Shown here one piece after another: positions 1 through 41,834 of a DNA stretch of 64,000 nt. The notes under the pieces are model-generated. The model worked only from the letters and a program-made list of their open reading frames with translations, did not search any database and was not told the origin of the DNA. The DNA is from Siphonodentalium dalli (taxonomy: Eukaryota; Mollusca; Scaphopoda; Gadilida; Siphonodentaliidae). A program made the translations under genes and the position numbers. Numbering within the stretch: the stretch's first letter is position 1; every line of letters begins with the position of its first letter. The stretch is from NCBI GenBank assembly GCA_032622095.1, contig CP136063.1, positions 29,638,987 through 29,702,986 of the forward strand, in the 5' to 3' direction.

Positions 1-3000
1 TCCAGATTCTGTAATTTTTCTTTTACTCTTCTGCGAATGGTATCGTAGAGTGAGCAGTTGGCAATAACATGCTGGCGGTCTTCAGTCTCTGCTCCACAGA
101 TGGGACAGGATTTCTTGATACTGTGCTTGTTGAATGTTGCCCTATTAGACTGCAGTATGTATGTTCCGGTGATAAACCTCGCCTTTATTTCAGCCCGGTG
201 TACCTCATGGCGATTGTTTCTTATGTGACGAAATATATGATGGATCTTGTTGACTTCTAATGACTTTGCATTTATATAGCTCAAGGTAGACTTTGTAGCG
301 ATCTCAGAGGACCAGTCTTTCTGAGTCTTGTCGGTGATTGCTTTACACAGTCGGTTCTTCCAGTCCTCAGGTGTTGGTGGAGTTTCCAGCAGATTATAGG
401 CATTCGGTAGGTCATAAAGTAGAAGGAGACATCTGATCATGGAGAACCATATGTTTGCTTCTTTACTGTGAACAGCGAGTTGTCTGTAGGCGACCTCCCA
501 TTCTATGGTGTTCTTGTCAGAGATTATACGATGGAACAAGTTCAAGGCATTTCGGTGGATGACAGTCATGATCGGTAGGGTTCCGACAAGGGCAGTTATG
601 GCTACCGACGCAGTCCTTGTAGGTAGATGGAGTATCTGTCGGAGGATTTTGTTCTGGTGCGCTTCTAATTTTTTGCTCTCTGTGTCGTTGATGTTAAGAA
701 TCTCTAGGCCGTAAGTGAGGCGAGGTGTAACATAGAGATTCCAGAGTTTTATTTTCACTCTTTGTGTGGCACCTGTTTTCCCATGTAGTCCAGCACCCAT
801 CAGAGAGTATGCTGTCTTCCTGGATAACGCAAGTTTTTTCTCGATGTCTGGCTTGTTGTTATTCTGTCGTATAATCCCGAGATGTTCTACTGCAGATGGT
901 GTGATTATTTTATTGTCATATATGATGAAATCTTTGCTAATCGAGGAGCCATTGTAGACTAGTAAGTTACTTTTGGTTGGGTTGATGGTGTATCTCTCCA
1001 TCCTTGAGTACTGGTCAACTTCTTTGATCATCAGCGTCATAGTTGTTTCCGAGTGTGCCAGGAGGCCAATGTCATCTGCGCAGGTGACATGCGGTATCGT
1101 AACAGTACCAATTTCAGCACCTCGGTAGCTGGTCTCTAATGTCCTCAAGAGGGGGTTATTGAAGCGTTTGTAGTGTCCTGTTGAAAGAATTTCACCTTGC
1201 CGTACTCCCTGGAGTATCTTAAATGTTTGTGACAGAGAGCCTTGCCATTTGACTTTACTTGTCATGCTCGTGTATATTTCCTTTAGTGGGAGCCAGTCGT
1301 GTCCAGTTATGCCATCTAAAAACAGCTTATGTAGGAGGATATCATGGTCGACTATATCGAAGGCCTTTTGTGCATCAAGGGTGGTGAAAAGTAGCTTCTT
1401 TTTTCCTATCTTCGCCTCGTTAATACATTCTGATACTAGAAGTGCAGCATTAAGGGATGAGGTTCCTTTTGTGAAGCCTTTTTGAAGTTTTGACTGCGTT
1501 GATAGTAGGAGTTTTTCATGTCTAGTATTCAGAATATGTTCCAAAATTTTGAGGATAGTTGACGTGACGGTTATTCCTCTGTAATTCGCTGGATTGTGAG
1601 GGCATCCTTTTTTGTACGCGGGTGTCAAGTGGCCTTCCTTCATTACTTCAGGAATACAGCGTGTGTGTACAATCGCATTCAGCAGTTTCGTCAGGTATGG
1701 TAAGATAACTGTTTGACAGAGTTTTAGATGCTCACTGGTGATGCCTAGGGAGTCAGCTGCTTTGTTGTTACTGAGCTTCTTCATTGCATGCTTTACCTCT
1801 TCGTCTGTTATGTTATTCATACTAGTAATGCTGGTCTGCTTGTGACAGGTATATTCTATCGTTTGTAGGTCATTCCTGCTACGATCAATATGTGGGTCAT
1901 CGAATAGTTCATTTTCGGTCGGAGTGGCGAGCTTTTGAAAGTGCTCCTTCCATCTACTCATTATACCTTCTGTAGTTGTGAGTGTTTCTCCATTCACGTT
2001 GAGTTCAGATATTGCATGTGAGGAAGTAGATCGTTGTTGTTTGACTAGTTGAGAGAAGGTCTTTGGATTCGGTTGAGCTTCCACAAGTTTCTCAATGGCC
2101 TCTGATCGTCTTCTGGCACTCTCTTGTCGTTGTAATTTCTGCAGAGTGGATTTCGATTGTTTCATTTCTCTGTATTCACTACTCGTTCTGTCAGGTGTTC
2201 CTGCGGTTTTCCACTTCCACCAGACTGCCTTCTCATGCTTAATAGATGCCTTAATGCCTTCATTCCAGACTTTTGGTTTAGTTTTTAGCTTTATCTGCTC
2301 TGTATGTCCTGGAATGCTGGTCTGAGTTGCTTCGATCAGTACTGTTGTCAGATGTTTACAGAGAGATGTAGTTGGTACTCGGTTGTAGGTTCCTCTAGAA
2401 AGTGTTGTAACTTTGAGGATACATTCTCGTTGTATAAAGCTTTGTTACAGCGATCCCATTTAGGTTTAGGTGTGATTTTGATGTCGTTTTCAACCTTCTT
2501 CGTGGATATTTGGATAGACGCACGAACTGGGATATGATCAGACGTATTCAGTGGTTCCTTGTTGTCCACTAGCCAGGCGAAAGTCAGCTTTCTGGCAGAG
2601 GGATTGCAGAATATGTAGTCAATTTCTGCTGTATCTCTTTCATTTGTGTGAAAAAATGCGGGCGTTCCTCCTTGTTGTGTAAACAGGTCCTTTTTCTTAT
2701 AGAACTTTATTAAGTTTGAATCCCTGTCATTTTTTGGGTCTCTTGTTAATGAGGCATTGAAATCTGCGCATAAGATCACTGCATGGGAGCTGAATTTTTC
2801 CAGAATTTCTTCTATTTCCACAAGTACTGCTCTGAAGTCATCAATTTTCGAGTTCCCTCGAGCAGACATGTACACACATACTATGCAGGTTGGTGGTTGA
2901 GTGAGGAGCTCCAGCACTACTATGCGATTGCTTCCATCCGGGTGTAATCTATATTGTAGGTCAAGATTCGTATTGAAGAATATTGCTGTTCCACCGTAGC

Positions 3001-3236
3001 CTCTGGGGACTTGATACGGCGAGATGGGGTCGTGTTCATCCACAGACTTCGCATGCACAGCTCTCTTGCTTGATAACTTTGCCATTATGGGTTTTTGAAA
3101 TGCAAACAACCAGTGTTCCTGGACACATAATATCTGTTTCCTCCAGGAGTTTGTCTAGATAGGGTTCATTGCTTTGGACGTTTCTTATATTTATTGTCGC
3201 TAGAATGAGTTGTTTCTTCTCTCCGTCTCCTTCCAC
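1..3236 (-). pseudogene. LINE ORF2: endonuclease-reverse transcriptase, two frameshifts, partial at left edge
   Basis: The first ~35 codons from 3236 (ILATINIRN, EETDI) begin an exonuclease-endonuclease-phosphatase fold. Near 3125-3130 the frame shifts; the rest of the endonuclease (LCADFNASL with the D-x-N site, SDHIPV with the catalytic His) reads in another frame to a stop at 2348. Near 2365 a second shift restores the first frame, which I read without a stop to base 1. This part contains LTPAYKKG and NYRGIT, the metal-binding DAQKAFD motif, QGVRQGEILST, and the catalytic box CADDIGLL at about 1085-1060 (C in place of the usual Y/F before ADD), then thumb-like sequence and a C-terminal CPICGAETED..H zinc motif at about 110-70. 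It would nick target DNA and copy the element RNA. The paired shifts make this copy inactive unless recoded. Confidence 0.85.
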
Positions 3237-5539
3237 CTTGAGGTCTTCGCCCGGTCCTGGTACAAAAAAGACTGAGACTCGTGCTCAGCCGATTCCGGTA
3301 TGTGGGAGCTAACAGACCTGACGTTTGTTATCTCGGGTGATGGCAGCTGTTTCTGCTGGTAGTTTTCATCCGTAAATGTCACCACTTTTTTTGGTGTTGA
3401 GTGTCTACGATCGTGTCCATGAGGGTTTTTGTTCTTTAGCCTTGGTGGAATAAACGCTGGCCAGCTTGGATTTGATTTGACTTGTTTGTTTTTTCCACCA
3501 TCAGTTTTCATATTTTCACGGCCAGTGCTGGTATGCATAGACGGAGTTTGTATATCTTGCGGAGTCGTCGATGGAGTTTGATACGTGGAGCTCTCCGTGG
3601 GCCTGCGCAGGAGTCTGTGAGGTAGGTTTTGTTTTGGTTGACTCACTGGAAGCTGTGTCGGTGGTGGTCCGCCATGTCCAGAGAAATTTTTGACCAGATA
3701 TTCAGGTCTGTGCCAGAGGTCAGGTCCCATCGGTGGGGGTCGTGATACATTTGGGGCTTGATATGGCACATGTGTTGGAAAGGACTGCGGTATCTGCATG
3801 TTGTACGGTGGCGGTGTAGCATAAGGGCAATGTTGAGCCGGTTGCCTTTGCAGTTCGTTGTTTTGCCGTTGCAGTTGGATTTGTAACTCTATGTTCGAGA
3901 GACGGTTGTGGATAGACTGGATCTCAAGTCGATTGACCTGCTGGGCCAGGTATGCATTTTCTGGATTATTTGCTGCATAAGTATAGGGATGGTGTTGAGT
4001 ACTCTCTGGAATCTGGGAGTTTAAGCCGTTTGATTGCTGTGGCATTTGAAGTGAGGCTTGCGCTCTGAGTACACGGTTTGTGTTTTCTAGATCTTTTATT
4101 CTAGCTTCCATTTTTAGCATATAGCTATTGGCCAGCTTCATCTGATCCACGTGGTCAGTGTTCTCGTCAATTTTCTTAGGTTTCACTTTAGGACGGTCCT
4201 TTTTCTTCTCTCCAGGATCCTTTTCAGGAGGAGTAAGCTGTTCAGTGTGCTTGAAGAACTTGTGTTTCGCTTTCTCGGTTGGGTTCAGTTGCTTTTTATT
4301 ACCATTTGTCATGATTTGTATTTCATCAGATTTTCCAGCATTGTCTTCTCCTGGAGTAGTGTGGTTTTCATCAGGTTTTCTTGCTGATATTTCCCAGATT
4401 TGTTGGTATTTACTTAGTTGGTTAGGAGTTTCCATCTTCTCAGTTGGTTGATTTGGTGCTTCTACCTTTTTTGAGTTGTCAGTTATACGCACTGGACTGG
4501 AGGTACTGAGGTTTGATAAGGTGCTCATTTCGTTTGACTGGTTTTGACGATCCTCTACACCAGTTGCTATGCCGATACTAGTAGAGACGCCAAGTTGTGT
4601 CGAATCGAATTTATGTGGACTTTCTTCATCGTCCAAGCGAATTGTCAGGTGGCGACAGGATATACAGCTGTATTCAGGCCCTTTCTCACTGTAAAATTTC
4701 CAAAGGGCGTCATCCAGGTTTTCACATTCTTTATGGAACCAGTTCAGGCATAGATCACAGCTGAGCCCCTCGTCGCTGACATACATCTTACAGTGGGGGC
4801 AGATCCCGAATTTGCTGTTTTCTTCTGGAGACATTTCCTGTACATCTAGTATTGTGCCGTTATTATCGATGCAAACCATACTCATTCCACAGTCCGGATG
4901 TTCAACACTCTTGGAAACGCACCGGTCTATGAGGGCAGCAATACGTCTGTCAAGCTGCGTCATTGATGGCTTCTTCATAACTTGCTGCATGATTTCTGGT
5001 AGGACTTCATCGTGGAAGGTGTTAGTGTTTCTCCCATTGATGAGGATTGATGACTGGGTATTATATAGGTTGATGGTGAATTTGGCTTGTTTACCTGCTT
5101 TGCCACTTACTAGCTTCCGGAAAGCTCTGATACTTAGCTCAGGTTGGTTCTTCTTCTGATCGACAGAGATGATGTGTTCAGCAACGAATTGATGTCGCTG
5201 AGAGAATGCTGGATCAAAAAAGGAGCGCAGGATTTCTTGTTTCAGCAATAGGTAGCACCCAGCGCTGCATTCAATTTTTAGTTGACGTCCCATGTCCTTT
5301 GGTATTATATTTATGAAGGGTCGATCACAGGCTTGTCGCATTTTTTCAAGCGTCTTCTTTTCATTCAGGGTATAATTTTTGTTTCGGACACTGGTGCGAG
5401 GTGCATTTACGGTGTCGTTTTTGCTCCGGATGATGCCTGGGGACAGTCCATTACTGGCATTAGGTGTAGCGTTGGGCACGATTGCCGAGACTTGGATGTC
5501 TGGGACCGGGTTGACGGTTGCTGTTATGGCACGGCGCAT
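3200..5539 (-). CDS. LINE ORF1 protein with PHD-type zinc finger and coiled coil
   Basis: Uninterrupted 779-residue frame. Residues about 75-190 form a compact region (FINIIPKD... FTINLYNT... ILINGR) of the kind seen in other invertebrate LINE ORF1 proteins. A PHD finger follows: C247-x2-C250, C261-x2-C264, H269-x2-C272 and C292-x2-C295, with the W-F-H core. After a Lys/Glu/Pro-rich linker there is a short predicted coiled coil near residues 465-500 (MKLANSYMLKMEARIKDLE), then a Gln/Pro-rich tail. By analogy with other LINEs it should bind element RNA and help form the RNP; the PHD finger may contact histone tails, which is inference. The first Met at 5539 gives the longest frame. It overlaps the ORF2 start by 37 bases, suggesting reinitiation or coupled translation. 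No disabling change was seen. Confidence 0.85.
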   Translation of the reverse strand: MRRAITATVNPVPDIQVSAIVPNATPNASNGLSPGIIRSKNDTVNAPRTSVRNKNYTLNEKKTLEKMRQACDRPFINIIPKDMGRQLKIECSAGCYLLLKQEILRSFFDPAFSQRHQFVAEHIISVDQKKNQPELSIRAFRKLVSGKAGKQAKFTINLYNTQSSILINGRNTNTFHDEVLPEIMQQVMKKPSMTQLDRRIAALIDRCVSKSVEHPDCGMSMVCIDNNGTILDVQEMSPEENSKFGICPHCKMYVSDEGLSCDLCLNWFHKECENLDDALWKFYSEKGPEYSCISCRHLTIRLDDEESPHKFDSTQLGVSTSIGIATGVEDRQNQSNEMSTLSNLSTSSPVRITDNSKKVEAPNQPTEKMETPNQLSKYQQIWEISARKPDENHTTPGEDNAGKSDEIQIMTNGNKKQLNPTEKAKHKFFKHTEQLTPPEKDPGEKKKDRPKVKPKKIDENTDHVDQMKLANSYMLKMEARIKDLENTNRVLRAQASLQMPQQSNGLNSQIPESTQHHPYTYAANNPENAYLAQQVNRLEIQSIHNRLSNIELQIQLQRQNNELQRQPAQHCPYATPPPYNMQIPQSFPTHVPYQAPNVSRPPPMGPDLWHRPEYLVKNFSGHGGPPPTQLPVSQPKQNLPHRLLRRPTESSTYQTPSTTPQDIQTPSMHTSTGRENMKTDGGKNKQVKSNPSWPAFIPPRLKNKNPHGHDRRHSTPKKVVTFTDENYQQKQLPSPEITNVRSVSSHIPESAEHESQSFLYQDRAKTSRWKETERRNNSF

Positions 5540-6405: not shown

Positions 6406-6684
6406 CCCATTTAGGGTAAACCAATCTGGTATGTGCATATCTACAGCAGATAGATTGATAACAACAGTTGGATAAAAATATGCAGGTCTGACTGTCAGTC
6501 TATGCAAAATTTCACGTGTGAACAGTTCACGAATATCTTTAGCCAAGAGACAGAGATCGGTATTCTATCTTGGACGGTGTCGCTGCCACGGACGAGGATA
6601 AGTCGTTGAACATCGATGGACCAAGACTGAACGGCAGCTTATCTATAATGATTGCCACTTCACGAGATAAACAGCGCATATATA
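6406..6684. repeat. Duplicated locus, 5' flank block, copy 1
   Basis: About 280 bases closely match 38979-39244 in the same orientation, including the shared stretches GTGTGAACAGTTCACGAATA and GAACATCGATGGACCAAGA. In copy 2 this block lies ~0.85 kb upstream of a zinc-finger gene; here the paralogous gene lies ~14 kb away, beyond the Academ-like transposon. A short antisense frame exists but is not conserved as protein between copies, so I do not call a gene. Confidence 0.8.
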
Positions 6685-6746
6685 CATGTAGTCGAAAATC
6701 TACGGGATACTAAAGATATCCCGTCGAAATTTCCCCCATGCCTCGC

Positions 6747-7505
6747 AACGGAGCTTTTTCTTCAAGTCCGGAAAGGAAGAATGTGACGCAAGATACGACC
6801 AAACCGCGATGTTTTCCGGGTAATACATGTGCTACTGCATCACCCTGACATACCTTTCATATTCCTTTTCCAAAAATGAGAGATTTATTGAGAATATTCG
6901 GCTGGAGCCGACGGATTTTTAAACATTTTTAAACATTGGGTTGTGCTCGATCGAACTCCGGTCACACCGCACTCGCTGTCGTGGGAGCAAGTATTTTCGT
7001 ACCCTGACCAGCTCGTACCCTCCGAAAAAGTAAATTCGTACTCTAGCGCGAAACTATTTAGATATTTCAATAAGGTTTCTCATCTAATAACTTTGCTTAT
7101 CTCATTTTTTTCACCGGGATTGAACGTATACTATGGAACCCACAGTGATCTCTTGGACGTAAAAGATACAGAAATAGAACAGAAACATGCCTGATCTCTT
7201 GGACGTAAAAGATACAGAAGTAGAACAGAAACCTGCCTATATATATATATATATACATACAAATTAAATTAAATAACCATACTTACCTGTTTTCAATCGT
7301 CGTATTCCATCACTATGCGCCGTGTCGTAATCCAGTTTCTCATCTAATAACATAAATTTGTCCAACCTGTTTTAGGGAATGGGTCCTGGGTCTTTGCCAT
7401 TGGGAAACAAATTGCGTCATAGAGGTTTACACTTAGTAAGGCCTATGACCGATAACGATTATAGTATGGAGAGTTGTCAGTGTGAAAATAGTGTAATCAA
7501 ATACT
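6747..7505 (+). repeat. Left terminal inverted repeat of the 14 kb transposon
   Basis: About 760 bases are the near-exact reverse complement of 20012-20769. It contains a tandem duplication of a ~45-base block (GATCTCTTGGACGTAAAAGA at about 7148 and 7194), a short TA microsatellite (about 7236-7253) and, read toward the element end, an AG/GTAAGT splice-donor-like site followed by an AATAAA-like signal. The helicase gene points into this repeat, ending ~95 bases from it. Confidence 0.9.
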
Positions 7506-7599
7506 TTGATGTATATTATATTTGCCAATAAAAAACATCAAAACAATAATACATATTACAAATAAAAAAAAACAAGAATATGTGCATAGATAATATCAT

Positions 7600-10500
7600 T
7601 CACCACAGGCTCACGCGTTTGCCATCGCACATACACTCCCGTGAACAGAAACTGCAGCAGTTGCAGCGAGCGCAATTACATTTTAGTTTATTGCACATCA
7701 AGTTACACTTGATGTCCGAGACAACTAACGGGCTCATTCCTTCAACAATCAATTGTTTGAGAACCGCCGCTCGATAACAATGACTTCCTGAAATTATATC
7801 AGAAACCTCTTCAGGACAACAGCCGTGCCTCAGCACAACTGCAGAACTTTGCCTGCCATCACGGCCTGCACGGCCCACCTCCTGCCAATAAGAAATAGAA
7901 CTTGCTGGTGCACCCCAGTGTACAACAATGTCGATATCAGGGATGTCCATCCCCATGCCAAATGCTATCGTAGCGACAAGAACTCTCGTATTCCCATGTC
8001 TGAAATTCTGAAATGAACATAGAATAAATTAACACGTATAAATGATGTTTGTTGCCACAATTGTTTTTTGAATGACTTTATTGTAAATGTATTTATAAAC
8101 TATTATAAGATAAAGCATTTGAGAACAAGTTGTTTTCTTAATAGTGAATTTAACTGATTGCCAATGCATGATTGAATGATGAAAAGTGAATTACTAATAT
8201 ACAGACCTAGTATATATTGGGTTCACATAGTATCATTATCATATTATATAGATTTGAGACTCTAAAGAATTTATTTCACAGTTGGCGCGAAGTAAAGAAT
8301 TTCACAATTTTACTGTTTCACTATTACCTCTGCTATTGTCCCCCGATCGTTCAACAAAATACCCGCATGGTATTCCTCCACTGGCGGATCATCCAAACCT
8401 GCGCTCAAGAGAGCGTCACACAGATCCAGACAGACGCCAGAAACCGCATTTATAGTGCTGGAGAAAGAATGAATTGAAGCAAGTTAACCTACATTTAGAA
8501 GATGAAACGGCTAAAAAATATATTCCAATGCTATTAACGTCATAAACGTTTATATAGTTCCCATTTGTCATGATAGCTGACACGCTATTGGTATAGTTAT
8601 ATATAGTTTTAATAACATAACTTATTAAAAAGATGTTGGTGTATCTTTGTTTCCTACCTCCCATATATCAAAACTTTCTTCCCTTTGCTTCCGTTTGTTG
8701 ATAAATCATCAATGAGCCATTGGAAGTTTTGGACGATGGCTGTTGTTGTTTTCTGTACATGTAGAAATATGTTTGGTCTGCATGAAATTAAAAGAAAATA
8801 TTATAATAATAATTTTTTGCTAATGATTAAACTACAACAAAATGATGCATGAACAGAGTATAAAGTAGCTGGATAACACACTGTACAAGATTTTAACAAA
8901 AGAATGCGACAGCAATGTAATTCATCACCAACCTGTCAGGTAACGCCGCAATGCAAGATGTATCCGACGCTAATGCCAGATAATGCATTATATCGCTCTT
9001 GATCGCACTGGTTACCGTTGCTGTGGTTGCCAACATAGGTACCTGGAATATGCTTCGTAGGTAGGACAGCCTCCTGTAATCTTTGCGAAAATCCTCACCC
9101 CTGTTAAAATGTACTGTGATAAGTCATTACTAAAGGCTACATACTACATGTATACCACAAATCGCCAATATCGCATGACAATAAGGCAACAATATTATAC
9201 CAGTCATTGTCCAATTAAAAATATACATAACATAAGGCCATTAAGCTCTCACGATTCGCCATCCTCGCGGTCATGATAATGAACATAAAAAGATATGCAT
9301 TGGATTGCTTAAAAATGAACGTGAAATAATGATCTTCCAATTGAAGAAGTATGTAACAACAAACAACATACATGGTAGACATAAATGCACAGCATGAAAC
9401 ATTGTATTGAAGTAAATGTTTTAAAAGGTTCGTAGACGTACCATTCGGAAACACAATGGCACTCATCTACTGCAATTAAACATATGCGCTCCAGCCACTT
9501 ACGACTCCTGAAAGCATTCTTCCACTTCTTCTTCAACGCATTCTCCGGTGATGTATACACGAAGGTTAATTCGGCATTCTCAATAGCTAAAAAAAAACAC
9601 ACAAAAAATAGTCTTTGGCATACATTGCATAATATGTAATTGGTCAAAATTGGTTAAATATTATGTAACAAGTTTTATACGTTCCATATAATTTCTCACC
9701 TAATATGCGTTCATTCCCGGGAATACATATAACCCTCTAAAGTTCTGTGAAACACTTCACATTATAAATGACCTAAAACTGCTCAAGTACATCTAAAATG
9801 AACACAAACTTTATAAACAAACACTTGTAAATCACGAACGACTTTAGTCAATCACAGCAAACTCTGGTTAACTTAATTCAGTTCATGTGTATTGCAAGCT
9901 CATATCTCTGATACATGTATTGAAATAAGATACAACAGGCATTTTATTACATGCAATTTATAATACAATAATTTGTATGCAGATACCCACAGAGAGTGGT
10001 TTTTACAAAGTGATATTAATAAACAGAAAATATACCATCACTTGTTGTAATTCTGTCGTCGCCGATACGACCGGCTGTAATACCTTTGGACCGCAACAAC
10101 TGTATATGTTCTTCCATGAGGCCAATCAATGAAGAAATCACCAATACAACATTGTTCTTGTCAGGATGAATCTGAATTACGGTAATAGCATTTATGTATT
10201 ACAGGCCCAAACTCGCTGAATCATCATATGTCGCAAAAAAATAAAAATAACAAAGTGCTACATTAAGAAATTTGAGTTCAACCAAACCTATCTAATAACA
10301 CTCACCGGGTCAGAGTATACATGAGCACGAATTTCCATGCCACATATGTTTCAAGCGTTCAGTCGCCAAGCCAGATTAATAAATTGAATTAATTGTTAGT
10401 GCCCCTTTAACAATTCTGAGGTCCACTCTAGCGTTTTTCCACCAGCTTGACGTATCAATGGCAATGTACATGAACTTTCGTAGAGCAATGTTTTCTCCAA

Positions 10501-11004
10501 GAACCCCATGTGGGGCGCCCCCAGCTCGTGTCTCGGATCATATATTAATAGTGCCCAATTGTCCATAAATGCCCACGACACCCCTACTTTCACATATACA
10601 CACACACACACATACCAACTTCAACAATCGTGGCCATAAGCCGTTCCATTTACACCTATATATAATACACATAAGCATGCAACCACTCCTTAATTATCCA
10701 TACACCCCACCCAAGATCATACATGCAGCAAAAACATGTATACAAACGAATACACCCATCCATGACAATAAAGCCACCCAATTCCGCGGAATCGACGGAA
10801 GGTACTGAGGTGCCCAATTGGATAACTCATACCAACCTTATTCAAAATTAATGGCGGCAAAATATAACACATTGATTTCCCGTAACCAGTTGGCAAGAAT
10901 GACATCACATCTTCTCCACTTAACAACGCATTTATGACATCTAGCTGTTTGTCCTTCAAACAGAAATCAAACCCAAACTCGTAGCAAACAGTCTGTGCGT
11001 CCAT
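7600..11004 (-). CDS. RecQ-like ATP-dependent DNA helicase, 7 exons, transposon-encoded
   Basis: Exon model (minus): 11004-10837, 10171-10036, 9586-9442, 9100-8933, 8777-8658, 8457-8328, 8007-7600. All introns are GT...AG, all phases fit, and the sum is 1275 bases (424 residues plus stop) with no internal stop. Motifs in order: KDKQ near 20 (RecQ motif 0 region), Walker A PTGYGKS at 38-44, [12 protein letters not shown] (motif Ia-like), the Walker B-type box DECH at 142-145, LATTAT at about 173-178 (motif III), [15 protein letters not shown] (motif V) and [10 protein letters not shown] (motif VI). A Cys-rich tail ([18 protein letters not shown]) could bind zinc. It is shorter than cellular RecQ proteins and lacks any HRDC domain. 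The role in transposition (unwinding ends or repairing gaps) is inference. The start lies 152 bases from the divergent transposase start. Confidence 0.88.
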
Positions 11005-11156
11005 TTCGAAGCAATGTGGGTCATGACAGAATCTGGTGGCGCCCTTGGTTAGCGGATCTGCTTATCAGTGCGCATGAGAACAGGAAAAACCCATAGTTCC
11101 TGGTTTCTGTTGATTTGTTTTGATGGAAGGGACCATTGTTATTTGTTCTCAGTTGA
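11005..11156. promoter_or_regulatory. Short divergent intergenic region, presumed bidirectional promoter
   Basis: Only 152 bases separate the start codon of the helicase (11004, minus) from that of the transposase (11157, plus). No TATA box is evident. The tight head-to-head layout suggests co-expression of the two transposon proteins; promoter activity is inferred from position only. Confidence 0.5.
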
Positions 11157-14100
11157 ATGATGGCGACGTGTGCAAATTGCGATGCAGAGTTCGTTAAAAA
11201 ACCCAATAACAAGGGTTACGAAAGACACGCTTTCACAGCAAAATTGTACAAAAACCAGGAAATTACAATCGAAAGTGCGTTGCAGACATGTTTGGGTGGC
11301 GGCATCACCCCGAAAACTGGACGGGCAACCCGTTTTTTATGCATTAAATGTACTAATTTACTAAGGGATAGCCACCGATCCGGCGGTGATAAACTTTACG
11401 CAGCCACTGCCAACGACAGCTATCTCTGTAAGAAGACACATGTACCTTCAACTCCAGGGAGGACTCCCAAGAAAGCCAAACGGTTAAAGTTTTCAACACC
11501 TGCGAAGACATTTAACAAGCCTACTCCAAAAAAGGTAATGGTTGTTTATATTGAAAAAAGAATTAATTGATAGCTGTTATAATTCATATATACTACAATG
11601 GGTTCTTCATATCACCAAATGCACTGTACTATTACAATGAAATACAATGGACAAATCTAGAGACAGTTCTGGTTAAAACATTGAGACATTGGGGGATATC
11701 TATTAATATTACCACCAGAAGCAATTAGCTCTGTGTCGCATCAGATGACTTCTATGTCGATTACATGGAGTCTGACACCACAGCGCACACAATATATATC
11801 ACAGACAATGTTTACAAGAAAACTATAGTCAGAAATGGTAACGCCACCAAGATCATATTATTAGCCATAAATATAAATTATAATATAAAATATATTGGTT
11901 ACATGAATGCACCGCCTCAGAATTCCGTTAAAACAACTAATCCTTCAAATTATAAAAAAAAACTATGGCTTATTACTGCAGGTTTCTCGTTCACCACACC
12001 AGAAAGCTTCTAAATGCGGATAAAAAATCGGAGGTATTGTGTTCCCGCCAAGAGTGCATGGCCCAGCCATTGTTCATACCTAAACGTCGAAAGCAAATAA
12101 CGCGGTCATAATGGTTACATACTGCAACTATAAGACATCCAGCGAATACACACCCCACGAAAACCCGAAATGTGTTGTCCTGCGAGATATCCCATCGCTA
12201 TAGCTCAATTTGACACGGCCTGATTAGTCTTTCTACAATATCCTAAAACAATAAAGCTTCTCATATCATCGGCATAGTCAATAGAATTTTCACGAACTTG
12301 GACATTCCAACTACAGCTTTTACCGGACTCGGGTTCGCAGTACAATTTAAACGCGTCCCAAAATAACCGCATTCGGGTTAGCACTACAGTTTTTAAAGCG
12401 ACCCAATCTATTTATAAAACCTACATCGGCCCATGTCTTTCTAATATTTGGCCAACAGTATACACCGGTGGCGTTAATGACTGCATGTATATGGATTCCG
12501 ACAAACACACGGATGGCTGTATCGCTTTGCTGATAAGATTTTATAATTGGTTGACATTGACGTAATGGGGGACCCCGATAGGTCTCCAGACTCAATACAG
12601 CATACCTATTGAGTGTGTTTTAACCAGAACTTATCTGGAGACGTGGACTGGTTATGTACTTACGTGGAATGGGTGGGTGTTACAAGTATAGTCGTGCACT
12701 ATACTAATGTGTAACAATCCTCGTCTTGCAAGTCCGCATCAGCAACGTTTCTCACAAACAACCAGGTGGGAGCATTAATGTGGCGATACGGTTTCTACAG
12801 AAAAAACAGTACCACAGAGCCGTGCAGGCCCTTCTAAAATGTTCGTCGCCGTTGCAGAGGGCCTTTAGAGTTGTGTTTGCCCAGGAGTTGAGGAATGAAA
12901 TGATATGCCTGCTGAAGGACAAATCATTTACTGATATATTAAAATGGGGTGATGTGAACCATTTTAAATGGGACAGCCTAATTGGTCAACTGGCCAACAA
13001 AGCACCAGCGGTATATGGCTCATTGGTTGCACTATTGCCGAAGAAAAAGAGAAGGTATAATTCTCCACCTTACACGCACACGATTGGATAGCGATCGGGT
13101 TCACTATTATATAGCGATTTGAAAGCACTTCTTCAAAGATCTCAATCATAACCGTGTGTGATACGCGAGATTGTGATTTAATATCAGTCGCTATCTATAT
13201 ATAATCGTGAACCCAGATTAGGTATATTTCGCTATCCAATCGTGTGGTGATTGGTCAGATCAGATCAAGAACATCATAACTATCTATTAATGTCTCATAT
13301 TATAATTGCCTGAAATAACTGAATACATGTCACTTACGATTGTATAGTTCACGCACTCGGAGTTGGACGATATGGCAATCGTAAAAAGGTGTGCATATAT
13401 ACTCTGTATATATTCTAGATCACAGTCGTTTGGGAAGTAATGTCAAAATATAACCCCGTACATGCAAAGATACCTATATTTACAAATTTGTAAAATCTAT
13501 ATCTCATCACTCTGAGCTTTGATGGGTGGGTTCCTTGACTCGAATAACATATCTTTTTACCCCAGAAGCCAAAGAAATAGTAATTGGGAGGCGTTAAATA
13601 AGATTATGTAGCTTTAAAATTGAAATGTCGCTTTATTAAGCAAGTTTTACTAATTTATTCAGCACGGCGGGTGGCAGCTTTTCGCAAGACTTGACGAAAT
13701 ATGTCGGCTCAATAATTTGCCAAGTGCTGTTTGTATGGAGGAAGCAGCTGAACCTTCTCCAATTCATGAACTCTTTGGAAATGTGGATCGGCGGGTGTAA
13801 GATGTCTGTATGTATTTTATATATAAGAAAAAGTAAGATGCAAGCAACCCATCAACAGATATTATGACAAATTTTAAAAGTAAAATGTGTGTAGGCTAGC
13901 TATTTTCATCAGGTGGAAACTGCCGACGTATACACGTGTACTGAAGATGCATTTTACATACGATATATATGAAGTATTTATTTGATAACTACTAAACCTT
14001 CATCCATGTATTCTAATTTTACCAAATTTCAAATTGAAAAAAAAAACCGTTGACATGAATTTTCATCTTTGTTTTTTTTATTTTATACTGCATATTACTT

Positions 14101-17100
14101 GATATGTTAAGTTTATACATGATATACGCACATATTCTAAACACGTTAATATATTTTAAATGCATAACTAAAAAGGAAGCGATGTGACCATGCATGACTC
14201 GTGTTTATTAAACACTGAAGTCGCCAAGATGTGACATACTAAAAATATCCCCTCGTAAATATGTGTTGTCAAAGGTATTTACCCTTTTCTCGCGCATAGG
14301 TCATACATCAATTCAACCATATGGGATGGTGCATGAGTCCCACAACAACACTGGCGTGTGTGGACAAGTTCCGGCAGAGGTACGATAAGAAGATCTTGGT
14401 CGAAAAAGAAACAATTGAGGTAAGTGTAAGGGATGTGGGTAAAGGGGCGGGGAAACATTCATTCAATTGCTGAAGATGTTGAACTATATCTTAATAAACT
14501 AATCGTGTTTTATGGCAATATACCATACATGTTGTGGCCTGGATTATATATTGACAGGATTTATAAAATTATGTGTTACCTTTGATACACGACAGGTAAT
14601 ATTACTAGACGATAATGTTAGCATTGTAACCATGTGCATTATATATCGTTACAGAAAGCATTGCTCCAGAAACCCGTTGATGTCCCCCATCAGGATGACA
14701 AACCATCGACGAGTACTGGACGAGGGACAAAACGACGACTGTTCGCGGTCGAGAAACAGCTTGGTTTGTACACCATAAAAGACGAAAAATTAATATATGA
14801 AAACACAATTAATTCAAAACTATATGGAGTATATCCATAAACGATATAGCTCGCAATGATTTCGCAATAACAATGTAGATCGTGGGTATGAACTGGTTGC
14901 AGGAACCAAGTCTGTCTTTTCTGAACTAAACTTGATTTTGGTATGTTGGCATGTGCATGTGGGAATACCCAACTCACTGGACTATAGTAATGGAGCCGAT
15001 CCATGAGATGTTATAGAATCCTACTCATACATGAGCACCATGTAGTTGTTAACACATCAGAGAGACAGGGCTCCAGCTATATATATCAACTTGAACCATT
15101 CGTCAGTGTATTTAAATGTTGGCCATGTCATGTATACCGGTATATTCAATATAAATGCTGATATTAATGTATTTATTCATTATATAGAACAGCCAGCTCA
15201 ACCACCAGGCTACACACTCTGCTGGGACAACATAGGACGGCATACGAAGGCCAGACACCAGACACTGAAATCAACAAATAAGCAACATCTTTGGGCCCTC
15301 AGCTATGCGGCCATCAACCGGGTCCCGACAACCCACCTGAATTCGACGGATGGTCAGCTAGCGGAAACCATTCCTCTCACGAAACTGATTCCTTCTCCAG
15401 ATGATGTTAGCTGGCTGAGGGGTCGGCTCGAGTTTACTATTAAATATATTGTGTGCAACAATCTGCCTTTCTTTACCAGACTGAAAAATCGCACTAAGAG
15501 GTATCCATATTTTGAGAATAGTGGTGCCATGTCTCAAAAGAGCGAAATTGTAAGTATTTTGATATTGGCAATTGCATAGTTGTGCTGACGTGCCTAGTTT
15601 ATATTGCAATATATCACATTTTCAAATAAACTGGAAAATAACAATATGGAGTCTATAGACCTGTAGTGGACTAGTACGCATGGGAGCGGACTGACAGACG
15701 GACGCACGGACTAATGAATAGCAATATGGCCAAATTAAAAAAGAGGAGTATGATGAGTCATAATTTATTTATATACATATTAATTTGAAAATATAATATG
15801 TGTGATGTGTGAACACGAGTTGCGGATACCCACTGGTGCGAATTCATTCAGGTTTATGTAGTTATTTGTCTTTGTTTGCGGTCGTCAACGGTCACACGCG
15901 TGCCAGTGTGTATGTGTTTTCCCCACCTTTTGATTAATATCGGTCTTAGGTCTATATGTTATCGTTAATTTATTGACTTTCAGGTAAATTTGGGAGTTAT
16001 ACGGGAAAATCCGTCTACATCAGCGGGAACGATTAAAATCGTTGAAACTCTACAGAAGTATGTCCCCAAAGTTAATGGTCAGTTACAGCCAGCAATCCTG
16101 TTTGGAGATGGTCTCTCGTGCGAACGCCATAACGATGCACACAAGGCCCGTGCCAAAATGACGACCCCAGAGCTGAGGCTAGAAGGACTCGAACCAGGAA
16201 TGCAGGATTTTCACAAACGGATGATCAGCATGCAGGTAACCTTATAATTATGTTGTGATAATTATATCTGAAGCAATGAACTCTCATACTGAATACGTGC
16301 CTCCACAACTCTGATATATTTATATATGCTAGTCGTATGTACATCTTACCACGAACAACATATATACGCAGCACACACGGCATGCATGGGTTGAACTCAG
16401 TTTCCGCGTGCATATAGACACCAGACTCTCAGTTTACGATATTATATAATTATCTAACAGATTATTTTCTGAGAATTAAAGCCTACTTTATTAAGTATAG
16501 CATTATTATATTACAGTAACCACAATTAATGCCGAATGATAATTTCACAAGTCTTAATAACCATATGCCAACATCTTATTATACTTTTGGTGTGTTACAT
16601 TGAAGATAATTCTGTTATCCAACCTACAACATGGCGATCTTGAACAACATTCCATACTTGTTAAGTGTTAAATTTTGTGTCTACATTACAACTAATCCGT
16701 CCTAATAGAAACTTATTTATACTCCCAGGACACGATGGATTTGCTTTTTAGCGGATCGAGCGTTGGAGAGAGGGGGACTTTGGCTCATATCAAAAACTTA
16801 TATGGCCATCGCTCCGTTGCGAAAGATGTATCAAAGTGCTTTAACCATGCTGCGGACTTACTTGAACACGCCACCGACAGTATGATAATAACCATGGCTA
16901 TGGATCATTTGGGTATTGTCACTTGTGGTGACCATCCATGTGATGTAAACGAGACAAGCATGAAGGACATGGAGGAACTCTTGAATGGAACCGCGGAGCA
17001 TATAGGTACGTATAAATAATTCCCTTCAATGAGGAAATTGTGTCCTCATTTTATACATTCGTGTTTACTGCTTTATCTAATTAAATCAGTATTATTTGTA

Positions 17101-19769
17101 CAGTCCTGAATAAAGTCCATTGTATCTTGTTGCATCCGTGATTATATTCGCTATGTTAACACATGTTTATGTTATATAGCCATCCATGCAATAATATTCA
17201 AGCTATACGCATTTATTCTAATTTATAAACAGAGTAACCTATCAACTCAGTTACCTAATCACTCCATACCCAAATGATTCATCTCATTTATCCAAAAGCC
17301 TACCAGATATAACACTTTACTGCACATAATTAATTTGCCACCCAGCTTCATTAATGAATATTGCACAATGTCCTCTCATTTGCCTGTAAGCCCACTTTCC
17401 ATGACCACTAGCTTGCATCTCTGTCTACATACAATTTGATGCGACTCGTTGTCACGTTCTCTCAGTGTGTCAATATACAGTATACATTTCTATGCATGTT
17501 CGCCAATAGTCTCTGAGATATGGGCAGATCCGGGTTATGAAGATTTGTGGCGTGAGGCGCAGATACAGGAGAAACAGAGAGAATCTTTGTTGGGTGGATC
17601 AGTTGAAGAAGGTGAGCGTTCTATATGTTTTTATTGAGGTGATTGCGGATGCTATTGAATGTATTCGTGTGTGATTATAGGTAATGAATCGCAGTTCGAT
17701 TGTGTCATACTCATATGTTTTGATCGACAGCAATTAAAGTTATTACACAGAGTTTACTCTGCGGGTCAACATCAAATGTCCCCAATCGAACTTTGAGTCA
17801 TTAATTATAGTTAAGAAGTGAGATTGATATTAAAACTCACATGTTATCGATTGCAGATGACGAACCCGCTACTGTTGAAGCCACCGAATACCTGTTCTGC
17901 ATTTGTAAGGACAAAGGTGACGATGCTCCGATGGTGTGTTGTGATAACGATCTGTGCCCAAATGGCGAATGGTTTCACTACGAGTGTATGGGACTTACGG
18001 TGGAAGATATTCCAGGTAGACTTATAACTATGACATTTTAGATTTAGCTCAATAGGATAACACAAGTTATTTTATATATAACGTCTATTAAATACAAAAT
18101 ATGATGATGGTCTTCAATGTCGATTCTAAAAAAATATACATTATTGTGTTCTTAATAGGTGGAAAACGACGGTGGTAGTGTGGTGGTGATTGCAAGAAGG
18201 CCGGTGGCAAGAAGAAGGGGAAAGTCAAAGAAGACTGTAGCAGAAGACAATATGCAAAAACTCTTGTGTGGAGGGGAGTGGGTGACAGAATTAGGAAGGA
18301 GGCGACCAGAGCCGGGGACGGATTGTCAATAGTACGGTTGTATTTATTCGACGCCATCGACTTCTATACCAACAAGCACCCGAAGTACCTGATTCTCGCC
18401 CATCGGCTGATTGTTGGTATGTTTATTAAGTATATCAGTAAAGTTTATGAATGAATACACGTGTGTTGTTTTAGACAACATAATTCTATCAATATTTTGC
18501 CTAACTGAATTCTCTTTATAAATTTTTTGAAATTGTTATATAAATACGAGTAAGGAAAAACACTATACAGATGATTGTGAAAATTCAACAGACATTTCAA
18601 CATTCATTCGTGGCCTATTGCTCGGTATCGTATAATTTGCCACAATGAAGCATGTCTATGAATCATGTTCCACGATGAAAAGTCTACCTAGATGACGATA
18701 ACAACAACTGGAATCGCTCCTAATATCAACATGTCATTGTTAACTTTGTCACACAGGAATAAATGGTTGGCTTTCAGAAAAGCTAAAGGAAGACCTCGTC
18801 AACAACAGGACGGTAAACTATTATGGTGGGCTGATGCGGAATATTCCAATGGACCAAGCTAACGAATATTTGAACAAGGTACCAATTTCATTTAGCATTT
18901 CCCTTAAGTTAGGAATATCATAACTTTTTGTCCAGTAAGATTCATGTGTTGACAAGGAGCGAAAAAGGCCAATTCGTATTACTAATATCAGCCATTGTGA
19001 TATCCCTCAAAAGTTCATTTAATTTTGTTTCCATCAACGTGTAATAGTATATGTAACATGTGTGGCCGTATCTGTTTGCAGTGAGCATACAAATTAATAC
19101 AATATGAATTATATATAACATTCAACACTTATTTTTGTTAGGAACTAATAGAGAGTTTGTCAAGGACGGGTCAGCTAACTGACAAAACAGTGGACCGCCA
19201 TGGGACCATGGTTGGCGGGATTACGAGAGAGGTACAGGAAAGTTACCACGATCTGTGTGGATTGAAGAATCGGGGTCCAGGACGAGGTATTCTAAGAAGT
19301 TCACCAGTTCAATAATATTGTTAATAATATGCTATTCAATCTGACATCAACCTATTTTTTGTCTCTGCCGAACGAAAATATTCACAAATTATGATGCTGA
19401 ATCGATCATGTGTTGTGGTCGTATCACACATTGCATAAATTTAAAATTTACGCAGTCCTAATTTATGTCTCATTTATTAGATATTAGATCATACTGTGTA
19501 TATACCACATTTAAAACGCATGTTCTTTTATTTTCTTTGCAGCCAAACATTTCGACAGATCAAACGACATTCAGAAGTTGGCAGAGGAGTGTTTGCGGGA
19601 GGGCGTATTTAATAAGTCGGCAACACCACTCAAATCATTCAAGAACGTCAAACTCCCGACCGTCACAGATCCCCATAAATTTGTATCCAAATTGGCACAT
19701 CTGTCTGAGAGGCTTGATTTGAGGAGGCGGGTGGTGGCTCGCAAACCACGCGGAAAGAAGAAGAAATAA
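11157..19769 (+). pseudogene. Academ/DUF6589-like transposase with PHD finger, ~15 exons, disabled
   Basis: Exon model: 11157-11534, 11982-12033, 12733-13054, 13663-13796, 14300-14419, 14655-14763, 15188-15549, 15984-16235, 16729-17005, 17510-17611, 17857-18015, 18159-18416, 18757-18878, 19142-19286, 19543-19769; about 1005 codons. N-terminus has CxxC pairs (CANC, CIKC), then a basic linker. LCWDNIGRH (exon 15188) and ILFGDGLSCER (exon 15984) hold the acidic residues I would nominate for catalysis. A PHD finger spans the 17857 and 18159 exons (CICK, CCDNDLC, WFHYEC). NRTVNYYGG and NIPMDQANEYLNK match my memory of DUF6589 proteins. The tail is Arg/Lys-rich. Damage: in-frame TAA at 12021-12023 (if the small exon is real), a one-base phase mismatch between the 13663 and 14300 exons, and TAG at 18176-18178 replacing the Tyr of the PHD W-Y-C. 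Hence inactive as it stands. Confidence 0.78.
13076..13246. mobile_element. Small MITE in a transposase intron
   Basis: About 170 bases have inverted ends: ACACGATTGGATAGCGA near 13077 and its reverse complement near 13244. Inner parts (GGGTTCACTATTATATA and its partner) also pair. It lies inside the intron 13055-13662. Superfamily and target duplication are undetermined. Confidence 0.6.
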
Positions 19770-20011
19770 ACCCACTTTCGACACATGTTTTTGTCTTTTT
19801 CTGATTTTGTTTGTATTATACACTTGATGACTACACTTTGTGTCGAACGATTACAGTCCATCTGAGCGAATAGGGAAAGCATACAACAATTGTCAGCAAA
19901 CTGTCCATTCCCATTTCCCAAATTCATGGAAAATCTTCTGGTTTTCTAAAGAAAAAAAATAGAAATTTCCCTTCCATTTACAAGATTTTCTTCATACTTA
20001 ATTTGCATAAC

Positions 20012-20769
20012 AGTATTTGATTACGTTATCTTCACACTGACAGCTCTAGTATTATAATCGTTATCGGTCATAGGCCTTACTAAGTGTAAACCTCTATGAC
20101 GCAATTTGTTTCCCAATGGCAAAGACCCAGGACCCATTCCCTAAAACAGGTTGGACAAATTTATGTTATTAGATGAGAAACTGCATTACGACACGGCGCA
20201 TAGCGATGGAATACGACGATTGAAAACAGGTAAGTATGGTTATTTAATTTAATTTGTATGTATATATATATATATATAGGCAGGTTTCTGTTCTACTTCT
20301 GTATCTTTTACGTCCAAGAGATCAGGCATGTTTCTGTTCTATTTCTGTATCTTTTACGTCCAAGAGATCACTGTGGGTTCCATAGTATACGTTCAATCCC
20401 GGTGAAAAAAATGAGATAAGCAAAGTTATTAGATGAGAAACCTTATTGAAATATCTAAATAGTTTCGCGCTAGAGTACGAATTTACTTTTTCGGAGGGTA
20501 CGAGCTGGTCAGGGTACGAAAATACTTGCTCCCACGACAGCGAGTGCGGTGTGACCGGAGTTCGATCGAGCACAACCCAATGTTTAAAAATGTTTAAAAA
20601 TCCGTCGGCTCCAGCCGAATATTCTCAATAAATCTCTCATTTTTGGAAAAGGAATATGAAAGGTATGTCAGGGTGATGCAGTAGCACATGTATTACCCGA
20701 AAAACATCGCAGTTTGGTTGTATCTTGCGTCACATTCTTCCTTTCCGGACTTGAAGAAAAAGCTCCGTT
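20012..20769 (-). repeat. Right terminal inverted repeat of the 14 kb transposon
   Basis: Reverse complement of the left repeat. On the plus strand it holds AAACAG/GTAAGTATGG (donor-like) at about 20224 and CTCAATAAATC (polyadenylation-like) at about 20624, both downstream of and in the same direction as the transposase gene. The outer end reads GCTCCGTTACC. Immediately outside is an 11-bp-arm palindrome (GACTATACATT/AATGTATAGTC, about 20792-20814). Confidence 0.9.
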
Positions 20770-20858
20770 ACCAGCGATGGGGAAAGTTGGACTATACATT
20801 CAATGTATAGTCAATTTTGGACTAATATACATGTAGGACTATCTGACTATTCCACACA

Positions 20859-22256
<1,398 letters not shown>

Positions 22257-37738: not shown

Positions 37739-38978
37739 TACCCTGCCTGTGAAAATAGTACTGTCATCCTGAATAATGGCAAAATGTCCTCCATTTGCAT
37801 TGTTTACATTCTTAGGAACAATTTTTCTTGGTATGGGAGACCATAATATCCTAACATTATTTTGCGATAGCCGATACACATACCATGGGGGCGGGGCGGC
37901 CATGATTACAAACAAACCTATCCGTCAATACTAGATTACGATTACGAATGGAACTCGATCAGTATAGACAATCGCGCATGGGATCAAGCTTTTGATTGTG
38001 CCCATCAATATATATGGGTTATAAGCTATATGATTGTACCTGATAACCGACAATTTCTCGATTAATTTACATTCAAATGTTATTAAACGTATTTTTCTCC
38101 ACAATGTTTTTCTCCCAGTGCACCAAAATAGAATTGACCGGAAGTGAACTCGCACAAGGAGTCCGTCGTAAAATATGACATATTTCGTCGGAATACGGTA
38201 CTTTCCTATTCATAAATATGTTTTATATAGGCTATTTGATTTTAGAATAATACAATATTCTGAAACATGTAAGTTTTCTATTTATGTGATTTGCGTAATA
38301 ATACGACATCTTGTAATCTCGCTTTCGACTATATACTGGTAATTCTAAAAATAAAATATTAACATTTCCATCTGTAAACAGCACAAAACTTCATAAATCG
38401 TGGGTAATCAAGCAACTAAATTAATTCCAACAACTTAAATAAACTGAAGGCATCGATTTCATATCATAAACTTGCCCGATTGCAGGATCGAATTGCTTTT
38501 CTGGTCGATTTTCATGTACCTGCCGCGAATTAAAAAATGACAACAACATCATGAACATGTGTTTACAATAGAAATATGGCGACTGGCTCCCAAGAAAAAC
38601 TGACACGTTTTAGCGGACGTTTTTCAAACGATACAGTGAACATTAATCTAAAGCATAGCTCCTTGGCTCTTAACGGTATGTCACTTATCATAATGGGCTG
38701 CCTAATGATACTGTTGAAGTTATAGTTTTTCACATTTGAATGCCAAAACAATGCCATAATGTTGCAGATATACTCTGTTTCAAAGTCATTTTTCTGGTAC
38801 AAAAAGCTTTTTAGCTTACATCTATTCACGGCACCTCCTTTAACGATATATGCTCTATATATTATCTCTATGTTGTTATATCTATTTCTGTCTGCTTTTA
38901 TGTGAAAAATACCAATTTTGTCAGCCCGTTTCCAGACATTTTTTATGAAACAGACTTTGCCATCCCCTTAACTACCAA
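37739..38978. other. AT-rich spacer, no gene recognised
   Basis: No frame resembling a known protein, no repeat unit and no clear mobile-element ends. Confidence 0.5.
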
Positions 38979-39244
38979 GCCATCTAGGGTAAAGCATTCT
39001 GGTATGTACATATGTACAGTATCTAGATTGATCAAACAACAATTGGATACAGGTCTGACTATCAGTCTGTGCAAAATTTTACGTGTGAACAGTTCACGAA
39101 TATCTTTAGTCAAGAGACGGAGATCGGTATCTTGAACGGTCTCGCTGCCACGGACGAGGAGAAATCGTTGAACATCGATGGACCAAGAATGAACTGCAGC
39201 TTATCTATAAATATTGCCACTACAAGAGATGAACAGCGGATATA
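38979..39244. repeat. Duplicated locus, 5' flank block, copy 2
   Basis: Counterpart of 6406-6684. After about 39245 similarity stops; in copy 1 the 14 kb transposon's left boundary lies ~60 bases further on. Confidence 0.8.
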
Positions 39245-40062
39245 TAGAACTATCATGCAAGGGCGTAATTCTGGGTATGGCTGGACGGTTTTGGCCGTAC
39301 CAATATTTTGCTGGCAAAGGTGAATAATATACTTATAACAGGACCAATGTTAATAATCCTGTCATTCCCACCACTATGCCCAATTAACTTATTAGTAAGT
39401 TATTACGAGTATTGGAACAACGAATTGATCATAATGTTTGATCAGTACACGTAGTTATGAATGATAATTTGCATCATGTTCCGTGTATACGTGTAGGCAT
39501 GTGCGTGGTATAGATCTGGCGTTATATATAAACATCACGACCAATGGCCCTTTCAGTCATAACACAAACTCCTTTCCATATTATATAGGGCTGTATGGGC
39601 CTATTCCTAAGTTATGCCCCATGGCTAAGCACTGCCAGGAAAGTGCATCGGCCAAATGTGTACGTGGTATTGACGTATGGATTTTGGTAAATTTAGTTGT
39701 TACGATACATGTATCGCCAATCGTAGGCGTGTTACTATCATGTGCCAAATTCAGTCAATCGCGTATAGGCTATATAATTTTTGTTCAACCAGTTAGCACT
39801 AAATATTACTTATTTCCATTTTTGTAACCACTTCTATATGCATGTATATATATCAGGAAACCAAGTAAAACGCGTCATTTTGAATGCAATATTAAAAGAT
39901 TTCATCAGGCAGGCCTCCGAACCCCCTCTTCTTGTGTTCTCTCCCACTCTTGTGTTCTCTCCCACTTGCTGCTTTGCAGCTCGGATAATGCTTCACAACA
40001 TATGTAAATTGTGCCCATATTATTCGGCCGTACGAATACTGGTATGACCGCTACGCCCCTGG
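39245..40062. other. Copy-2-specific sequence between flank block and zinc-finger gene
   Basis: No coding frame of note. A tandem TTGTGTTCTCTCCCACT pair lies at about 39932-39966. Either lost from copy 1 or inserted here. Confidence 0.5.

Positions 40063-40084: not shown

Positions 40085-41834
<1,750 letters not shown>

Follow-up and report, generated by a model that had tools for sequence, protein, structure and literature searches.

Introduction

Kojima is said to have described AcademH, in 2020, as the helicase lineage of the Academ superfamily. According to passages of PMC10045372, AcademH has target site duplications (TSDs) of 9 or 10 bp and the helicase is linked to TSD length within Academ, and an excerpt of PMC10294476 gives Academ elements of a bivalve library a mean length of 5,565 bp. 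Kolobok TSDs are the 4-bp TTAA in a portion of PMC9587614, and a portion of PMC6446971 describes, for Rehavkus, a 9-bp TSD and a transposase that bears a PHD finger. Here we analyzed a 64,000-nucleotide stretch of the scaphopod Siphonodentalium dalli (contig CP136063.1, positions 29,638,987 to 29,702,986; hereafter the window), which carries an element with a DUF6589 transposase gene and a RecQ-like helicase gene. We assign a probability of about 0.82 to the reading in which this element is a young member of a low-copy DNA transposon family resembling AcademH and moves by the mechanism proposed below. Helicase-bearing AcademH elements are known; new here is a helicase-transposon sub-lineage with divergent genes and a PHD-bearing transposase.

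Two layouts of helicase transposons in one genome

The sub-lineage to which the window element belongs has its two genes in divergent orientation. In the 2.23-Gb assembly (9 contigs), we merged all 90 DUF6589 matches and all 85 matches to the window transposase into 107 transposase loci, and the results of three helicase searches (all 53, all 100, and 69 of 118 rows, the remainder taken as repeats) into 174 helicase loci; both lists are lower bounds. A helicase lay within 12 kb of 47 of the 107 transposase loci, against about 0.2 expected by chance. Within the clade of the window, 10 of 31 transposase loci had a helicase at this distance, and all 10 pairs were divergent (head-to-head). Among the 76 other transposase loci, 37 had such a neighbor, with 35 pairs convergent (tail-to-tail) and two on the same strand. 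The layout table gave a Fisher p of 3e-10 (computed with fewer helicase rows, which yielded the same table), although family copies are not independent and the ten divergent pairs, judged by eye from spacing and identity, represent perhaps four or five families. When the clade was drawn most loosely, with all 85 rows, six convergent pairs moved to the clade side, and these were weak matches. The recurrent pairing contradicts the possibility, raised in an earlier note on this DNA, that the helicase is a captured host gene unrelated to the terminal inverted repeats (TIRs). What began as a single copy thus becomes a family-level comparison between two layouts of helicase transposons in one genome.

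Ends of the element and target site duplications

Alignment of copies placed the limits of the element at 6689 and 20824 (Table 1). The earlier note had set them at 6747 and 20769; the element that it reported is real and its limits were wrong. The ends move outward because palindromic termini starting with TAGTC cap the inverted repeats and a perfect 9-bp duplication, ATATACATG, borders the element on each side. TAGTC starts both ends and is followed by a palindrome whose sequence is unlike between the two ends but is seen again in other copies. The TIRs that had been noted earlier were borne out as two 739-nt arms that are 98% complementary, and each arm contains a two-copy 46-nt repeat.

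A genome search with the inverted repeat returned at least 49 matches, of which we fetched 30, two of these being the window's own arms. TSDs were scored in the 17 copies with both ends read, excluding 7 further loci of the 30 with one end only. Perfect 9-bp duplications flanked 14 of the 17 copies and perfect 10-bp duplications flanked two, with none in the remaining copy, so that a perfect duplication of 9 or 10 bp was present in 16 of 17, which is more than chance.

Table 1. Features of the helicase-bearing element, in window positions
Feature	Positions	Strand	Remarks
Whole element	6689..20824	.	14,136 bp; termini common to other copies
Left TSD ATATACATG	6680..6688	.	
Right TSD ATATACATG	20825..20833	.	
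L-type terminus TAGTCGAAAAT and palindrome	6689..6727	+	DNA fold -7 kcal/mol, z -2.5
R-type terminus TAGTCCAAAAT and palindrome	20789..20824	-	DNA fold -7.2 kcal/mol, z -5.2
Left inverted repeat arm	6728..7466	+	739 nt
Right inverted repeat arm	20050..20788	-	739 nt
Helicase exon 1	10837..11004	-	start ATG, Walker A GYGKS
Helicase exon 2	10036..10171	-	
Helicase exon 3	9442..9586	-	DECH box
Helicase exon 4	8933..9100	-	
Helicase exon 5	8658..8777	-	
Helicase exon 6	8328..8457	-	
Helicase exon 7	7600..8007	-	motifs V and VI, Cys-rich C terminus; retained in many short derivatives
Transposase exon T1	11157..11427	+	N-terminal CxxC motifs, by eye; donor GTAAGA; alternative donor 11534 out of phase
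Transposase exon T2	12733..13054	+	acceptor either 12733 or 12766
Transposase exon T3	13663..13807	+	
Transposase exon T4	14300..14419	+	
Transposase exon T5	14655..14763	+	
Transposase exon T6	15188..15549	+	first conserved D, WDNIG
Transposase exon T7	15984..16235	+	second conserved D, FGDGLSCER
Transposase exon T8	16729..17005	+	
Transposase exon T9	17510..17611	+	
Transposase exon T10	17857..18015	+	ING-like PHD finger, first part; 3 bp lost in frame at 17909
Transposase exon T11	18159..18416	+	PHD finger end; private nonsense codon 18176-18178
Transposase exon T12	18757..18878	+	conserved D/E, IPMDQANEYL
Transposase exon T13	19142..19286	+	
Transposase exon T14	19543..19769	+	includes stop

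A DUF6589 transposase with an ING-like PHD finger

Transposase exons T2 to T14 joined in phase through GT-AG borders, and T1 joined in phase from the donor at 11427. Pfam PF20231 (DUF6589) matched the transposase core in two pieces, at 4.4e-15 and 7.1e-07, on either side of a PHD finger. When the window protein was aligned with open DUF6589 frames from its own genome, the conserved acidic positions included D242, D391, D666, and D731/E735 (window numbering). Our proposal of kinship between the window transposase and DUF6589 rests on the profile match together with weak direct matches to the DUF6589 frames of the genome (32%, 8.3e-7), and these findings suggest that DUF6589, listed in Pfam without a known function, forms the core of a transposase. 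A 658-bp segment at window positions 11815-12472 is present in the window and two sisters and is missing from both duplicated parts of the copy at C2:52.9M.

The PHD finger is ING-like, with ING2 as its top PDB match (6.6e-10), and sits between the second and last conserved acidic residues of the transposase. ING fingers are known readers of histone H3 trimethylated at lysine 4 (H3K4me3), and by homology the window transposase finger probably reads chromatin. In a distant head-to-head relative, C7:206.33M, whose transposase is 46-61% identical to that of the window, we observed a clear PHD finger at the same position (52% identical, 1.9e-7) and a probable second finger directly before it (39%, 0.003). 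A search with the window finger gave 13 matches, of which, by eye, 10 adjoined transposase pieces and three did not. The 10 comprised four in the window family, three near C1:212.0M, and one each at C9:22.27M, C3:202.2M, and C7:206.33M. The convergent pair at C3:202.2M has a PHD match, so the finger also occurs outside the head-to-head layout and is rejected as a marker of head-to-head elements only. A PHD pattern was not found in 30 fetched DUF6589 loci (L009-L038), a weak negative because the pattern was strict and likewise overlooked the C7:206.33M fingers, which are split by introns.

A minimal RecQ helicase

All borders of the seven helicase exons on the minus strand were GT-AG, and their in-phase join encodes 424 amino acids, in agreement with the gene model first proposed for this locus. 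Pfam matched DEAD (4.6e-21) and Helicase_C (1.4e-18), and the top PDB match was WRN (4.8e-50), followed by other RecQ helicases. An RQC or HRDC domain is common among RecQ helicases, and neither gave a Pfam match up to E 0.1 here. From its sequence, the window helicase is a minimal RecQ core with a Cys-rich tail.

Long copies and short derivatives

At least four long copies exist, the window, C3:40.2M, C3:62.83M, and C2:52.9M, and the other three match the window at 99.0-99.6% identity where blocks over 1.8 kb align. The interiors of C3:40.2M and C3:62.83M are flipped relative to their end-specific termini, consistent with recombination between the long repeats. These two copies also have in common an 867-bp insert with a 9-bp duplication in a transposase intron, for which blastn detected no relation to the window. 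Derivatives of about 2.2 kb (L048, L050, L055, L062, and others) retain both inverted repeats and the open frame of helicase exon 7, about 144 amino acids. Internal duplications were apparent in two long copies, with a repeat of about 9.5 kb involving helicase exons 1-2 at C2:52.90-52.92M and a second set of helicase exons 2-7 at C3:40.20M.

The window transposase has two lesions in T2-T14, a nonsense codon within the PHD finger and the in-frame loss of one codon. Both are private to the window copy and missing from the three other long copies. The earlier note had counted two nonsense codons and a phase break, in place of which we found a single stop and the 3-bp in-frame loss, and a phase break was ruled out by the in-phase GT-AG joins across T2-T14 and one choice of T1-T2 junction. 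The damage appears to be an unremarkable chance event in a single copy. In another long copy, C2:52.9M, a deletion of 56 bp shifts the frame in T7.

DNA surrounding the element

An intact C2H2 zinc-finger open reading frame (ORF) of 378 amino acids (window 20859-21995) begins 34 bp beyond the element end. A paralogous zinc-finger array at 40085 has DNA (38968-39246 and from 40062) corresponding to either flank of the insertion point with the element absent, and holds a different 815-bp insert instead. On the minus strand at window positions 2348-5539, a 253-amino-acid ORF with the look of an endonuclease/exonuclease domain adjoins a 779-amino-acid ORF with a PHD-like motif, an arrangement that by eye resembles a long interspersed nuclear element. 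A 234-amino-acid ORF at 57618-58322 is similar by eye to the N terminus of a TTF-type zinc-finger transposase.

Alternative readings

We considered whether the helicase has been selectively kept in the window copy, as a trans-acting helper for sister copies or for host use, while the transposase decays, and we judge this very unlikely. At the private mutation rate of the copy itself (11 private substitutions counted and two private indels entered by hand, over the 8.6-kb transposase region itself), the probability of a helicase without lesion is 0.74 and that of at least one lesion in T2-T14 is 0.46, and their product gives a joint chance of about 0.34. Since an intact helicase beside a broken transposase is expected about once in three at this rate, selection on the helicase is not needed, and we attribute its intact state to the young age of the copy. 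The sisters argue in the same direction: C3:62.83M has an open helicase and a transposase open through T2-T14, and C3:40.2M shows the reverse pattern, its helicase exon 1 being interrupted by a stop and its transposase remaining open over the part fetched. On the side of selection, the seven coding changes between the window helicase and that of C3:62.83M are five synonymous and two nonsynonymous, a bias that points to purifying selection, which may go back to the autonomous phase, and exons 4-6 gave a ratio of nonsynonymous to synonymous substitution rates (dN/dS) of 0.42 against a 7-9% diverged relative. Exon 7 of five short derivatives (L048, L050, L055, L057, and L062) nevertheless differs from the window by two synonymous and seven or eight nonsynonymous changes, a near-neutral ratio that rules out exon 7 as a selected gene in these derivatives, where it is best read as a passenger. 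Between L048 and the long copy L044 (C3:62.83M), exon 7 differs by five synonymous and six nonsynonymous changes, which arose partly on the L044 side. A special retention of the helicase in the window copy, which the earlier note had entertained, is not supported.

Two further alternatives concern ancestry. A MuDR/Rehavkus-type element that picked up a helicase would account for a 9-bp TSD and a transposase PHD finger, both of which Rehavkus has (PMC6446971, in the portion cited above), but we regard it as highly improbable considering that the core matches DUF6589, that no MULE domain gave a Pfam match up to E 0.1 in the six exon proteins scanned, that 10-bp TSDs are also present, and that other DUF6589 transposases of the genome likewise adjoin helicases. 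The other possibility, that head-to-head elements took their RecQ helicase from a host genome separately from tail-to-tail elements, appears unlikely to us. The N-terminal half of the window helicase scores slightly higher against human WRN (115 bits) than against two tail-to-tail helicases (103 and 102 bits), and a tree places it apart from those two; this tree, however, has five rows and long branches, and the alignment of the window helicase with the tail-to-tail helicases runs past motif VI to about residue 407, whereas the WRN match stops at 348. Furthermore, the window layout recurs in a relative whose helicase is 42-53% identical, so any capture is old. More broadly, the head-to-head elements might constitute a distinct helicase-transposon lineage, defined by a rearrangement that lets both genes be expressed head to head out of one shared promoter region, by a RecQ gene possibly acquired separately from that of tail-to-tail elements, and by single or tandem ING-type PHD fingers that would steer insertion to H3K4me3 promoters; we put this forward tentatively, as rather less probable than not.

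Family assignment, proposed mechanism, and comparison with known systems

Our preferred reading remains a young copy of an AcademH-like family. The helicase and the TSDs of 9-10 bp support the AcademH-like identity that had been suggested earlier, with AcademH known here by description and not by sequence. Several observations weigh against this reading. At 60 of the 107 transposase loci no helicase match lay within 12 kb, among the best candidates listed and with decayed exons easily missed. A tblastn search with the genome's DUF6589 frames of 250 or more amino acids against the element gave no match at E 0.01, and our literature search turned up no paper with the word DUF6589. The AcademH assignment compares published descriptions rather than Academ sequences, the exon joins are models predicted from DNA, and the roles of the helicase and PHD finger are proposed from homology. 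Among the matches listed, the literature search likewise gave no paper pairing Academ with a PHD finger. One scan for viral relatives returned two pattern matches, neither confirmed.

In the mechanism that we propose, a DDD/E-type transposase would bind the element ends, cut, and join them to the target with a stagger of 9-10 nt. The helicase may melt ends or gaps and thereby aid excision, joining, or gap repair, and the PHD finger may read histone H3 tails and bias the landing site. The stop ends the transposase ahead of the last conserved acidic residues, so mobility of the window copy should depend on proteins supplied by other copies. Since the genome also offers a sister copy with both genes open, numerous short derivatives, and numerous distant relatives, the contributions of a RecQ helicase and a histone-reading finger to transposition become directly askable.

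Relative to described systems, the element resembles AcademH in having a helicase beside the transposase, a TSD of 9 or 10 bp (as given in the excerpt of PMC10045372), and inverted repeats. Its transposase, a candidate for the Academ DDD/E type, has conserved D, D, and D/E columns and the PF20231 match. At 14 kb it differs from the Academ mean of 5,565 bp in the bivalve library excerpted from PMC10294476. AcademX traits, an XPG nuclease and a 3-4 bp TSD, were absent: the window TSDs are 9-10 bp, and none of the five XPG_N and seven XPG_I matches in the genome listing lies in the window. By eye, 0 of these 5 and 7 matches fell at a listed transposase locus, making a link to AcademX through XPG genes uninformative. 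KolobokH, the RecQ-encoding Kolobok of fungi, likewise carries a RecQ helicase, but the 4-bp TTAA TSD reported in part of PMC9587614 differs from the 9-10 bp of varied sequence in the window family. The MuDR-related Rehavkus, as partly described in PMC6446971, has the 9-bp TSD and transposase PHD finger in common with the window element, whose core instead matches DUF6589. A further Rehavkus trait is a minisatellite preceding the 3' inverted repeat; in the window element, the only such repetition noticed is the two-copy 46-nt repeat of each arm. Finally, the tail-to-tail elements of the same genome likewise combine a DUF6589 transposase with a RecQ-like helicase within 12 kb and differ from the window element in that their genes are convergent rather than divergent.

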